From: Bolinopsis microptera
Taxonomy: Eukaryota; Ctenophora; Tentaculata; Lobata; Bolinopsidae
NCBI RefSeq assembly: GCF_026151205.1
Contig: NC_087081.1
Span: forward strand, 9,543,246-9,607,245
Direction of reading: 5' to 3'
DNA: 64,000 bases
The position numbers and the translations under genes are program-made. Each line of letters starts with the position of its first letter. Position 1 is the stretch's first letter. Positions 14,418-57,534 of this stretch are shown piece after piece. Under the pieces are notes generated by a model. That model ran no database searches. It had not been told where the DNA came from and saw only the letters and a list, made by a program, of their open reading frames with translations.

Positions 14418-16726
<2,309 letters not shown>

Positions 16727-27322: not shown

Positions 27323-29094
27323 ACCTTTTGTAATAGAGACTTGCAGGTCTAATTACAAGTTGGGAGCTAGTTTTCGCAGCCCGATGTGAAACACTTAGGG
27401 TGTAGATTAGTGCACTGTTGGAGTATGGGTGGTATATACTGCCAATTATATACTGTCCATTATATACTGTCCATTTGCTGTTCTGTCCCAAATTTCAGTG
27501 AAGAAAAAACGACTAACGAACTATTACCAAAGGGGAAAAGACATTGCAAAGACATTGCAAAGAGACATTAGACCTATTAAAAAGACATTAGAAAAGACAT
27601 CAGACCTATAAAACAGACATTGGAAAAAGACACTAGAAAAGTCATTATGACTATCAAAAAAAGACACTGGAAAAGGCATTCGAACTATTAAAAATACATT
27701 AGAACAATTACCAAAGGAGAAAAGACATGAGACAAGTTATCGGACGATTAACAAACGAACAAACGTGACAAGACGTCGCACAGCAGCGTGTCAGTAAGAA
27801 CTAACAAGTGTGACAGAAAGACGTGTGTAGTGTACAGATACTAACTTACTAATGATACAGATAACACTGGATTAAACGTATTGTAGAGATATAACAACAG
27901 TAGTGGTCCACTGGTTCAGATAACACTAAAAACTATCAGCACACCCGGTGAAGGGTACTGCAGTGTGACAGAAAGGAGACACCCTCAGTACTACTAGTTA
28001 TAGTGGTCCTCATAAGTGACTTATCAGTGGGTAACAGCGATAAGAGCTGCTGAAAGGAGTATTAACCTACACCACTACAAGGGTGAAACCTCTATAGGTA
28101 CAAAGTGAAACCTCTCTACAAGGGTGCAACAATATACCGAGAGAAGAAGAAGAAGAAGAGGAAGACCTGTTACAATGATATATATAGTTTCACGAAGCAT
28201 CAGCTGTACAAGTTGAAATAAATGTGTTTACAACTTATTGAAACTATAGTGAAACTTATACTCAGTAGGCTGAAAGAACTATTGAAGAACCAGAAATTGA
28301 GATGTAAAATATAAATAATAAAATGTAAGACCGTGAAAACGAAACTACCAGTTTTATCTAAACAAACAAGCCGCGAGTTTTAAAGTTTAAACCCGTTTTT
28401 TAGATGTGGACTATCAAGTCAAACGTGATGTGAGACACTGGGAAGGTATGAACGTACGGGTTGCGGGTGATTGTTTTTGTTACACAAAACTAAGTGGTCA
28501 TAAGTGGTCATTCTAATGAAGCTCAAAATTGAGATAAAAAAAACGACGCCCATCCCTAAACATTAGGTGGTAGAAAAAAGAAAACCCAAGTGAACAAAAC
28601 TGGGGTGACATTTTAACCCCACAAGAAACACGCGACTGATTACAACGAAAGAAACACACCACAAGTTCACGACACTGGGATTGACAAAATCATGAGAGAG
28701 GACCTCAAAACAGCTCAGACTGAGTAGAAAATGGGGCACAATAATGATGTAACACAACACGAGCCTTTAGGCTGATAGCCTGGGGGCATCGTAATATTCA
28801 ACATAATTAATTACCATGTAATTAGCGTGTTTATTATATACTGTATGTGATCATGGTTAGGATTACTGAATGTTGTAACATCCGTACAAACCACGATCAT
28901 GGGATCTTCACAGAGTAAAGAAGTTTACAGTTTAAATCTTTATTTCGGATTGTGTCTACCTTTGACACGACCCAAACTAAAGATAAAGGGTATCAATACA
29001 AGAGTTAAACACTAATGAAACCCTGTTATCTGTATTCAAACCAGTATAAACAGCTCATAATCACAACATTTAGAGCAGACAAATAATGGAAGGT
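27323..29094. other. Intergenic stretch
   Basis: No gene is supported. Degenerate repeats containing AAAAGACATT occur at about 27535-27730 (roughly 30-bp spacing, imperfect). Confidence 0.4.
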
Positions 29095-30107
29095 TTAACG
29101 TTGGCACCTACAATTGATTCTTCCTTTAAATTTTAATTTAACACGTTTTTTTAAGTGTGGTGAGTTGCTGATTTCACTTTTTTCAAAGTAGAGTTCACAA
29201 AATGAGGAAAAAGTCGCAATGCTTTTTAAAGTGCAACCATAAATTTGTACATAAGATGAAGTGAAAATATTCAGCAGTTGTGATTTGAAAAAACGAAGTG
29301 CCAGGCTCAAGCAGAATATGACTTATGAGCAATTAAACTGAGTGCCAAAAATCAGCAAACCATTTTAACCTCCAATTGACTAATTCCATTGATTTCGCCA
29401 TATTTTGCTCAAATATTGTTCACATTACACTAGTAGATTGGAGTGAGTAACTGTTTTCAGCATTTTAGTCATGATTAGCAATTCCAGTAAGTGACAGAAT
29501 TCAGTAAGAAGTCATTTTTATATCTGAATACGACTGCTCTATTGATGGTTCTTGTCAAAATAGTAAAAAGATCAAGGCATAACTGTGTTTTTTTCTGGAT
29601 AAGATAATGATTGGTTGTGTCTTTAAACTAATTCCTACATGTCTATGTGCCAGCCATCAGCAAAAAGTCACACATGTATCAGCTTGAAATTTAATTTTTT
29701 CTAATTGATGAAATAATTATCGAAATTTCAGTTCTCTTGTTCAGTCACCATATTGACTTTTAGATTGAAGGTGCCATTAATCAGTTAAAATAAGGCTTGA
29801 ACTCTGTACTGCTTACACTCAATTATGTCCCGAGTGCCCAAATTCAGTATATCAGTCATATAGATAAATGATGTAAAAAGACAAAAATTGTCTATTTCTT
29901 GATCCATGGGTGTACTAGTGTTAGTTTAAGCATCTATTTCGAAAAGTAATGTGTTCATAAAGGGGTCAAAACAGATAATAATATTAGAGTGCCACTAATC
30001 AGCTGTAGTGACTGCTGCAGCCAACGTGGGAATTACCAACTATTGTAAGTCAATGTTTCAGATATGAATCTTAGTTAAGTTATATCCTGATAATTTGAAT
30101 AGCATAT

Positions 30108-30173
30108 GTGTCCTGAAAATCAGTAAAAATGACTTATTTGACAGAAATAGTCATTCTTACTGCTAAATGGCAC
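30108..30173. repeat. Hairpin of two inverted motif copies (1)
   Basis: A plus copy (AATCAGTAAAAATGACT) and an inverted copy (AGTCATTCTTACTGCTAAAT) face each other across a loop of about 13 nt, ending in GTG...CAC. The stem is imperfect, about 25 bp, similar in size to a microRNA precursor. Confidence 0.65.
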
Positions 30174-30448
30174 TCATTTAGTTCAAAATATTGTTTGAGG
30201 GAGCGGTGTGCCTTTTTTTGTTTAATGTGGCACAATTTTGTTGCACTGTGTGCCATTATTCAGCTTAAAATGACTTCTTTTTCTAGGCATATACCAATGG
30301 TAAATCACATAAAATGTTTGCTTTGTAAGCAGTGTTGTGATAACCTGCTATAACTAACTTAAAACTGGCACAATGAACTTCAAAAATCAATAGTATGTAC
30401 CTAATTTCCATGATGAACATAATATTGTTGTCAGAAATCTACTTTATC

Positions 30449-30538
30449 GTGCCAATAATCAGCAAAAAGTCATTTCTATGAAGATTTTAAGCTAAAAATA
30501 TTATTTATAAAATGACTTTTTGCTGAATTAGAACACAC
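30449..30538. repeat. Hairpin of two inverted motif copies (2)
   Basis: TCAGCAAAAAGTCATTT pairs exactly with AAATGACTTTTTGCTGA downstream, a 17-bp perfect core stem with a loop of about 35 nt. Confidence 0.75.
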
Positions 30539-30606
30539 AATATCGTTAGATTTTGTAAAGAATCATCTTGATGAACCTGCCTATGCTGTCAGACATCAAT
30601 TGTATA

Positions 30607-30697
30607 GTGCCAATATTCAGCAAAGAGTCATTTCTTTTGAATTTTTAATCGTGATGAATTTGACCTAAAAATGACTTTTTACTGAAAACTGACACAC
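30607..30697. repeat. Hairpin of two inverted motif copies (3)
   Basis: CAGCAAAGAGTCATTT pairs with AAATGACTTTTTACTG with two mismatches. The loop is about 35 nt, close to that of hairpin 2. Confidence 0.7.
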
Positions 30698-31314
30698 TCT
30701 TAATTTTATTTTCGAACAGAATGCTGTTGAGCAGACTTATTCTCGACAGTATGATTGAAAAACGTTCTAATTTGTTGCTGTCTAGCTACTGCAATGTAAA
30801 AAAATCAATTGTAATTTTGTGAGTGAATTTTTACTGAATACAGGCACACAATAGGTTTTTCCTAGGTTACATTATTACAGACCAACGTTTCTTGAAAGTT
30901 GTTACAGTTCATTCACAAGCTGATCAAAAGTATGGGCCTTGTACAACCCCTTCAACCAAACTAAAAATTTTACCAAACAAATGACTGTTTGCTTATTTTG
31001 AGCACAGTTCAAGTATTCCTACCAAAATCCAAATATTCTTTGAATAATTCTGAGACATAATCTGAATTTTGAACAGAAAAGTCGCAAAATTCAGTTTTTT
31101 ATGGGCGTTTTCAACATTATAGTCCAAAATGCTGAAAACTGGCACTGCCTTGGTACTATATTATGACGTATTAACTAAGTAATGGATTTTCCTTACAGGG
31201 GCAGTTAAGATTGAAGGCATATCTGTGCAACACTTTCTAGTTACTAGTCATTTCACTTTCATTGTCAAAAGTGTCATGGCACTCAAAGTCATTTTCACCA
31301 CACTTAAAAAAAAA

Positions 31315-31340
31315 CGAAAACTGGTAAATACCAGTTTTCG
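31315..31340. repeat. 26-bp perfect palindrome
   Basis: CGAAAACTGGTA and its reverse complement are separated by AA. It is preceded by an A-run and lies at the end of the motif field. Confidence 0.85.
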
Positions 31341-32417
31341 TCAAAAACCACAACCCTCTTAGCTTAGCTGTGTCCGAGCGCCTTAATTATACCCCTAATT
31401 CGGTCTTAACCAATGTAGCCTTCAATTGGGCTGAAGCAGCTTTAAATTATAGCAACAAGTCCTTAAACAAAACAACCTACCTTTAGATCCCTCTTAGTCT
31501 TCACATCATTAACTCATTAACTAACATGTAAGTCATGATAACTAGTCTTTCTAGGAAATCTCCTCACTCCTGGCTCCATTATAACAATATAACATCCTCT
31601 CAGCTCTCCCTCCCTCTCTCTCCATCACATCTTTTTATAGAACATTTATCATACAATAAGGTAACGCTAGTGTATGTGGTGGTAATGGAGCTCCATGGTT
31701 GGAGCATGATTGACAGTGCTTTCTGATTTGAAGATTGCTGCAAATAGGATGGCGCTAAAATTTGTATGTTGAGGTATGAACAGTGATGAAACACTGGAAG
31801 CAATTCTTGTACATGAGTTAGATCGCCATTATCCTAGAAACAGAGAAACGTTGCGAAATAGCAATTGAACGGTATGGGGCGGGGCAAAAGTTGATTAATC
31901 TAGGTGGACTAAGTTAGAAGATTGGGCGATTGTTCATTTAGCCCCATGGAATAAACTTAATCTACACCTTTCTCACTCATTGAACCGTGTCGTTTGTTCA
32001 ATTCAAGCAGACAAAATAGAATTTAAACACTTAGGATAATATTATAATGTATATGATAATACAACTGAAAAGGACTGTAGGGACAACCGTGTAATCAATA
32101 ATACAAACTTCTTGGACACACAAACCATAACAAAACAATTACCGGGGGGCGAGTCAATAGTTGGTGTAAGCGCCAATGAAAAGCCTGGCCAAGGTGAAAA
32201 TCTGGGACATCTAAATAGGAGCCTTCAAACCAGCCTCCCTGACAGGTGGTGGTGAGTAGGGTAATTATCATCAGGCTGCACTGGGAGGGGCAAGGAAGGT
32301 CGGAGCAGGGGATAATCATCATCATCGCCCTTAGCACTTAATATTGCAGCTGGTGTCACGTGATGTAGTGAGAGCACTACAGGAAGTGCTTAAAGTGGGG
32401 AGACAGCTGACTAAGAC
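31341..32417. other. Intergenic stretch with one exon-like segment
   Basis: On the minus strand 32143-32238 is open in one frame between a TGTCAG acceptor and a GTAATT donor and would encode GGWFEGSYLDVPDFHLGQAF and 12 more residues. GC content is higher than the surroundings. No partner exons are seen, so it is only a hint. A segment with GCGATTGTTCATTTAGCC at about 31925 resembles one near 42533. Confidence 0.25.
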
Positions 32418-54376: not shown

Positions 54377-56025
54377 ATGACAGAACAGAGAGCGGAGGTA
54401 AACAGATGACTGGATTACTGAATAGTATTGTATTATTATAGTGGAGATGGTGGACAGTGAGATGTAATCTGTGTCAGCTATTGGGGGATGTTTCTGGGGA
54501 CAATACGGTGGGATAAGTTGGTGTTGATAAATTATTTTTTGTATCGAAATTATTGATGTTTGCCTACAAAATGATATCATCATTGACCGAAACAAAAAGT
54601 GATTTGTTTTATGTGTTTGTTATCAAACAAAACCCGATCTTCTGTGTGGTGAAATGTTAAAAGCAACGTTAAATTTTTATAAAAATGACCAAAATGAAAG
54701 TTAAAAATCGTTAAAATGTCATTTAGATAAATCTAAACGGTGTTTAAACTTTTAAAATGTTAATTAAGATGACTTGTCTACATGTAAATTCAAAACAACA
54801 AAAGGTTTAAAACTATAGCTATGCTTGTGGTTATTACTCACCCTTAATATCATCTGTGGTTAAAATGTGCATATTTTGTAAATAATTGTAAATTATTTGT
54901 ACAGTTTTAAGTGAAGTGACGCAAAACGTGGTCGGAATTCCAATAAGGCCATTTCTTATATATAAATATAATATAGATATAATAAATTTAATATATATAA
55001 TATACAAATAAACGTAAAACAGCAGATGCTTCTACTACTGGCTGACAACCCATAGACAACCCATGTAGATGGAAATATTTTGTTCACCAAACTGTTGATA
55101 AAACTTTAAATTGAAATATAATCTAAATTTAAAAAGAGTTTACTCACGTATAGAAGTCGTCAGATTTTCATTAGCCTGAAATTAAAAGTAAATTAAGTTA
55201 TTATTATTTCTATTGATAATGTATGGAGGTGACCTAAAAGAGGAGACTTTTGAAAAAATGAGCTAGAAAATTAAGAGAGCTCAATAGAGGGTGAGAAAAG
55301 TTTGCGATTGTCACATTTACATACGACTAATAAAAACAAAATTAACAGACAATATTTGTGCACCGGGTAAAGTGTTCAGCTATTCACAATTATAATAAGT
55401 CTAACCAGCCCCCACTATGCACCAACTATACTCATCACAATTACACTGTAATTATTCCGAGTAAATTCTAATTATTCCTAGAACGTCCCTCGTCCCGATG
55501 ACAAAACTATAGTTAACAATGAAAAGAAGAGACATATGAGCACTAGACCGAGAAACCGACACAAAACGAATTAAAGACCTTAATATTCCATTTTCCAAGA
55601 AAGACCGTCAATAATAATATGATAATTCCCAAATTTACAGTTTTCAATATACAGGACCAGGAGTTGCCGGAGGTGTAGTACTACTAGTACTCATTTATAT
55701 GGTTTGAGTTGTATGTGGCCGGGACCTACTCGTCAGTGGCCATGCACTTACTTATACCAAACATGGGAGTAGGGTAGAGAAATAAGGGATCTATCAATTT
55801 ATTTAGTACTTATTCCTAATAGAGTACAGTTATTTCAGACCCAAAATCGGTATATTTTTGCCACATTGCTCTCGAAATAGAACATTACGTGGCAACAAAA
55901 TATCAATAACGGTATCAATGGGTGCAAGAGAAACGAGAAACAATCCCTCACAGTCACTAGTATAACAACCAACCCAGACTGGTTAAGGATAACCTTGCGG
56001 GGAATAGTGGCTGTTATTTGCAACA

Positions 56026-57298
56026 GAGCCGGGGGCTGGGATAGAGCCGGGGGCCGGAATAGAGCCGGGGGCTGGGATAGAGCCGGGGGCTGGGATAGAG
56101 CCGGGGACCGGGTGAGAGCCGGGGGCTGGGTGAGAGCCGGGGGCTGGGATAGAGCCGGGGGCTGGGATAGAGCCGGGGGCTGGGATAGAGCCGGGGGCTG
56201 GGATAGAGCCGGGGGCTGGGATAGAGCCGGGGGCTGGGATAGAGCCGGGGGCTGGTATAGAGCCGGGGGCTGGTATAGAGCCGGGGGCTGGGACAGAGCC
56301 GGGGGCTGGGATAGAGCCGGGGGCTGGGATAGAGCCGGGGGCTGGAATAAAGCCGGGGACCGGGTGAGAGCCGGGGGCTGGGTGAGAGCCGGGGGCTGGG
56401 ATAGAGCCGGGGGCTGGGACAGAGCCGGGGGCTGGGATAGAGCCGGGGGCTGGGATAGAGCCGGGGGCTGGAATAAAGCCGGGGACCGGGTGAGAGCCGG
56501 GGGCTGGGTGAGAGCCGGGGGCTGGGATAGAGCCGGGGGCTGGGATAGAGCCGGGGGCTGGGATAGAGCCGGGGACCGGGTGAGAGCCGGGGGCTGGGTG
56601 AGAGCCGGGGGCTGGGATAGAGTCGGGAGCTGGGATAGAGCCGGGGGCTGGGATAGAGCCGGGGCTGGGATAGAGCCGGGGGCTGGGATAGAGCCGGGAG
56701 CTGGGATAGAGCCGGGGGCTGGGATAGAGCCGGGGGCTGGGATAGAGCCGGGGGCTAGGATATAGCCAGGGGCTGGGATAGAGCCGGGGGCTGGGATAGA
56801 GCCGGGGGCTGGGATAGAGCCGGGGGCTGGGATAGAGCCGGGGGCTGGGATAGAGCCGGGGGCTGGGATAGAGCCGGGGGCCGGGTGAGAGCCGGGGGCT
56901 GGGATAGAGCCGGGGGCTGGGATAGAGCCGGGGGCTGGGATAGAGCCGGGGGCTGGGATAGAGCCGGGGGCTGGGATAGAGCCGGGGGCTGGGATAGAGC
57001 CGGGGGCCGGGAGAGAGCCGGGGGCTGGAATAAAGCCGGGGACAGGGTGAGAGCCGGGGGCTGGCCGCTGGGATAGAGCCGGGGACCGGCCGCTGGGATA
57101 GAGCCGGGGGCTGGGATAGAGCCGGGGGCTGGGATAGAGCCGGGGGCTGGGATAGAGCCGGGAGCTGGGATAGAGCCGGGGCCGGGTGAGAGCCGGGGGC
57201 TGGGATAGAGCCGGAGACCGGGTGAGAGCCGGGGGCTGGGATAGAGCCGGGGGCTGGGATAGAGCCGGGGGCTGGGATAGAGCCGGGGGCTGGGATAG
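56026..57298. repeat. 1.27-kb G-rich 18-bp minisatellite, about 70 copies
   Basis: The unit is GATAGAGCCGGGGGCTGG with variants GGACCGGGTGA and GGAATAAA that recur in a higher-order order (for example near 56099-56117, 56343-56361, 56466-56490). The plus strand is strongly G-rich with closely spaced GGGGG and GGG runs that satisfy quadruplex spacing. The 491-codon minus frame (SQPPAL repeats) and the plus RAGGWD frame reflect a period divisible by three. Confidence 0.96.
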
Positions 57299-57534
57299 AT
57301 GTTGAATCATTACTGTTCCGCGGTTCCGACTAATTTGAATTAAGATTAGTCAGCTTGGTGACGCTTGTTTGTTTGGAGTTGGTTGTATATGACACGGTGG
57401 ATTATTGTTTGGGATTCTCAGTTTAACATCATTTAAAAGTGGATAGAGAACGTGGGTGTTTGTTTGGGGCTGTGTTTTGTGTTCATACCAGGAGGAAGTT
57501 GTTGTTGTTCCGTTTACATTTTACATACAGGTAA

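Follow-up and report, generated by a model that had tools for sequence, protein, structure and literature searches.

We found, in the window (the whole stretch of 64,000 nucleotides of Bolinopsis microptera DNA analysed here), a field of recurrent motifs that is almost certainly the interior of a single damaged copy of a non-autonomous DNA transposon, 2.2 kb long. An earlier note had placed the field at 29295-31285; the field itself is real, but these limits are too narrow, the element extending over 29141-31316 (Table 1). An 18-bp perfect inverted repeat brackets the field. It is the inner part of a 26-bp terminal inverted repeat, GGACACGTTTTTTTTAAGTGTGGTGA, seen in full in copies other than that of the window. 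The window copy corresponds to positions 5-2222 of the 2227 in the family consensus, with 4 bp gone from the tip of its left end and 5 bp from that of its right; given these losses and that of a further 40 bp inside, it is probably immobile. Its broken right end is adjoined by a small inverted repeat at 31314-31341 (13-nt arms, 2-nt spacer), whose 24-nt core was found genome-wide only at this place with up to one mismatch allowed, and which could be a repair scar.

Table 1. Features of the transposon copy, in window coordinates.
Feature	Position	Strand	Details and basis
Window copy of the non-autonomous transposon	29141..31316	+	genome search with 29130-31330; mapping to 20-copy consensus
Left terminal inverted repeat, inner part	29146..29163	+	18 nt, 100% complementary to 31295-31312
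Left motif sites	29193..30018	+	starts 29193, 29298, 29342, 29491, 29647, 29771, 29834, 29989; weight matrix >16 bits, mapped to window
40-bp stretch (consensus 918-957) missing from window copy	approx. 30052..30054	.	mapping to consensus
Facing motif pair, hairpin 1	30110..30173	.	plus 30110-30138, minus 30144-30173; folding, consensus mapping
Motif sites near middle	30203..30279	.	minus 30203-30233, plus 30250-30279; consensus mapping
Facing motif pair, hairpin 2	30449..30536	.	plus 30449-30478, minus 30507-30536; 17-nt perfect inverted arms; fold z -6.39
Facing motif pair, hairpin 3	30607..30695	.	plus 30607-30636, minus 30666-30695; folding, consensus mapping
Right motif sites	30818..31145	-	30818-30847, 30976-31005, 31116-31145; consensus mapping
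Right terminal inverted repeat, inner part	31295..31312	-	pairs with 29146-29163

The 264.65-Mb assembly was searched with 29130-31330 as query, and at least 81 matching pieces were found; 40 of the 108 candidates were scored, and these copy counts are lower bounds. Of these pieces, 24 (counting that of the window itself) cover almost the whole query: they begin at its position 1 or 12, and 23 extend at least to 2183 (common limits 12 and about 2183-2187). We fetched 38 loci (labelled L below), namely the window copy and 37 other places with the same ends. The exact end pattern for GGACACGTTTTTTTTAAGTGTGGTGA occurs 65 times genome-wide, and its reversed control does not occur at all. Numerous dispersed copies sharing their ends had been named beforehand as the result that would speak for a transposon, and this is the outcome. 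A 4-bp target-site duplication is exact in 25 of the 26 copies, among the 37 loci, where a simple rule recognised both ends (the window copy, its ends lost, was omitted); the exception, L011, has the flanks CCGA and CCAA. The duplication is AT-rich, with T at its first two positions in 17 and 21 of the 25 and A at its last two in 19 and 16, and is TTAA in five of the 25. L018 failed the rule, having a changed end; by eye the same 4 bp flank it on both sides. L020 interrupts a 13-bp minisatellite, the period of which resumes after removal of the element and one GTAT (the 4 bp duplicated), and is therefore direct evidence for insertion with a 4-bp duplication.

A consensus was made from 20 of the 38 loci, the remainder being truncated, interrupted or failing the end rule. 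It is 2227 bp long, and its longest stop-free frame has 62 codons. Each of the 20 aligned copies is 1.48-2.56% divergent from this consensus, and the mean pairwise difference between copies is 3.2%. An old fold-back family, one of the origins first suggested, is contradicted by this small difference and by an inverted repeat of just 26 bp. The copies share their inverted repeats, duplicate a target of fixed length and have no coding capacity, as non-autonomous terminal-inverted-repeat (TIR) transposons do, and we are left in very little doubt that this is a young family of such elements. Older copies are also present (L057 at 84-87%, L058 at 80-87% and L059 at 89%), as is a derivative of about 430 bp in L053. 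The old copy at L057:1007-2700 is flanked by frames that by eye resemble ribosomal protein S13, and may therefore sit in an intron. L063 holds two right ends of the family, at 251 and 5471, about 5.2 kb apart. One is old (85%), the other young (98%), and their similar flanks may reflect local duplication or conversion.

The motif was scored in 29295-31285 as GTGCCANNAATCAGCAAAAA, with 18 fixed positions and with 100 dinucleotide shuffles as control. At a threshold of 13 of the 18 positions there are 15 matching sites, where the shuffles average 0.51 and never exceed 5; raising the threshold to 14 leaves 14 sites, against an average of 0.06 and at most 1 per shuffle. The earlier count of at least 15 occurrences in about 2 kb was thus reproduced, and the excess holds in the comparison with shuffled sequence that had been suggested along with it. 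A weight matrix fitted to the family consensus gave the motif GTGCCAnnnnTCAGCAAAAAgTCATTT, of which TCAGCAAAAA is part, and 23 sites, 19 of them above 16 bits. These roughly 19 good sites are spread along the entire element. Nine are plus and one minus in the left half, with three plus and six minus in the right half (Fisher p = 0.02), in agreement with the orientation described in the earlier note, mostly plus on the left and mostly inverted on the right. The GTGCC side of the motif points to the nearer element end.

Several motif spacings are near 150-160 bp, and the window is rich in minisatellites (80 Tandem Repeats Finder rows), both of which would suit a degenerate satellite or minisatellite. 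However, the motif orientation is mixed, the copies are dispersed with fixed ends and their own target duplications, and Tandem Repeats Finder reports no array between 27694 and 32421. The satellite remnant that had been considered is thereby refuted, and we give such an origin practically no weight. The minisatellites of the window (1-64000) include 71 copies of an 18-bp unit (56025-57299) and 156 CA units (14421-14732).

The three hairpins reported earlier, each a plus and a minus motif face to face, were recovered, and five RNA foldings of these pairs gave z-scores of -3.58 to -6.39. The hairpins form where two occurrences of the motif, opposite in strand, sit close together. Such strongly predicted hairpins could belong to a hairpin-RNA or small-RNA cluster, in which the facing motif pairs are transcribed, folded and processed. 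Rfam, however, has no family reaching its gathering score here, with two sub-threshold matches only, at 28929-28988 outside the element, and the hairpins sit within a mobile element that has defined ends. Base changes among the copies bear on the same question. Changes shared by at least two of the 20 copies occur at 23 of 683 sites in motif windows (3.4%) and at 105 of 1492 outside (7.0%; p = 0.0005, or p = 0.001 with randomly placed windows), to be read with the copies being phylogenetically non-independent and the motif sites being defined on the same consensus. Motifs in hairpins have the fewest shared changes (3/162 vs 108/1561 elsewhere, p = 0.010), which favours an RNA role, but solitary motifs are depleted likewise (17/452 vs 108/1561, p = 0.015). 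Depletion in both kinds is more in keeping with sites recognised in DNA than with a function limited to RNA hairpins, and we consider an RNA cluster very improbable. In the motif, single-copy changes too are slightly less frequent (65/683 vs 178/1492, p = 0.11; random windows p = 0.03), and part of the depletion may therefore reflect a lower mutation rate.

Movement of the family would have been by cut and paste. A transposase encoded elsewhere, now or recently, would have recognised the 26-bp inverted repeats, and a staggered cut at insertion would leave the 4-bp AT-rich duplication. The motif GTGCCAnnnnTCAGCAAAAAgTCATTT, repeated in an array, is probably bound by that transposase or by a partner protein; we infer both the binding and the nature of the protein from sequence. 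An array facing both ends could let the two arms be gathered and paired. In sections of PMC11707139, subterminal site arrays are usually credited with aiding end pairing, and can restrict activity too. In the old copy L057, the motif (84.5% identity) and the rest (85.2%) are equally diverged, which is expected only if the copy decayed without constraint since insertion, and which counts against the motifs being binding sites. The array may instead go unbound by the transposase in the same transposon, being a relic of internal duplications or else bound by a host protein that aids persistence, an explanation that we rate as a serious though weaker contender. Part of the interior is indeed duplicated (in a consensus-like copy, 1330-1431 is 75% like 1488-1590), the slight rarity of single-copy changes in the motif fits as well, and known transposons usually hold such sites near their ends, not throughout the body. 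A part in mobilisation accounts better for the mid-element flip in orientation and for the scarcity of changes shared between copies. On the assumption that the sites are bound by transposase, a fuller account can be offered, speculative and on balance unlikely: two short ends joined by about 19 binding sites that flip mid-element might make an unusually good substrate for a 4-bp-duplicating transposase of an as yet unassigned kind, by which the family spread without coding capacity and outlasted its partner, now without a copy in the assembly that bears matching ends.

A puzzling motif field thus becomes a bounded, young transposon family, and its many young copies make the array testable, by comparing changes passed on by transposition with those arising after insertion. 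What remains puzzling is that the element was mobile recently and its enzyme is not apparent in the assembly that contains it. For non-autonomous TIR transposons an autonomous partner with matching ends is usual, not required, and the end-pattern searches of the assembly found none. A relaxed end pattern gave 70 places, of which 69 are family ends and one is chance-like (reversed control 7); a minor variant of the pattern brought in one more end, a diverged right one at C10:491911; the end pattern with mismatches gave 25 sites, fewer than the exact pattern. A motif search gave 148 sites, with no partner among the roughly 100 listed, and no partner appeared among the 40 scored of 60 candidates from a search with a diverged left end. 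Ten loci, amounting to nine places with distant or single ends, contain either broken copies or inserts of unrelated sequence (L047, L051 and L055 are those with listed frames). L062 and L063 have diverged right ends and no recognisable left end, and L058 and L066 are one old copy within a duplicated stretch, about 210 kb apart. Just outside that old copy lies a 239-codon frame with cysteine pairs (L058:1403-2122, duplicated in L066) and without a Pfam match. The partner either has different ends, has been lost or is absent from the assembly.

Several family copies are interrupted by other elements. Nested in L047 (2454-6019) is a 3.57-kb element with inverted repeats of several hundred bp and ATAT on both sides. 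Its three long frames have no Pfam match above cut-off, and one of them recalls a nuclease domain by eye; it was rejected as the partner, its ends differing from those of the family. Inserts in two further copies, L051:887-5454 and L050:3988-6756, share one kind of end (a G-run, then TGACATGTCTCCAATGTCTCC), and the longer, in L051, is crowded with repetitive serine/proline-rich frames; judged by sequence, they resemble a further mobile family, one whose body is filled with repeats. Another short-ended element is the 1.1-kb insert at L056:2616-3737, whose inverted ends are GGGGAGATACACCAAAACCG and which has TTAAG at either side.

Among known systems, Sola elements duplicate 4 bp of target and vary greatly in the length of their inverted repeats, according to passages of PMC10741241, and in a Sola2 group the duplications are AWWT and the inverted repeats 12-13 bp long, according to passages of PMC3627910. 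The 4-bp AT-rich duplication is common to our family, whereas its consensus here is TTAA-like and not AWWT; this is a resemblance only. Repeated internal transposase sites are described for piggyBac elements in part of PMC11707139, and TTAA as preferred target is a further likeness. Assignment to piggyBac was rejected, TTAA accounting for only the minority of duplications given above where it should be strict. The genome has 26 piggyBac-type transposase matches, and in the two of these loci that were read with flanks there are no GGACAC ends within 4.7-4.8 kb. Ten of the 26 have E < 1e-40 and stop-free frames of more than 400 codons (e.g., C11:19206792-19207883), which hints at recent piggyBac activity in this genome.

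En/Spm (CACTA) and Ac elements carry subterminal transposase-binding repeats, made up of numerous short motifs, some direct and some inverted. By analogy, we propose that those arrays and the internal array described here share one principle, with the difference that the motifs here fill the whole 2.2 kb, not just the subterminal few hundred bp. CACTA elements have the ends CACTA and a 3-bp duplication, and membership was rejected for a family with GGACAC ends and a 4-bp duplication. Foldback elements have long inverted-repeat arms; the opposite orientation of repeats in the two halves recalls them, but here the inverted repeat is short and the internal repeats are separate motifs. The family is like MITEs in being non-coding, with inverted ends and target duplications, and in apparently being moved in trans. 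The MITEs of an insect survey are shorter than 800 bp in the portion of PMC5199201 that gives their size, and the consensus length is well beyond a limit of about 800 bp so drawn, so it was not placed among them. A literature check by sequence words from the element returned no match. As far as this check extends, we regard the family as a new one of a known kind, the non-autonomous DNA transposon, whose unusual side is a motif array occupying the whole body.
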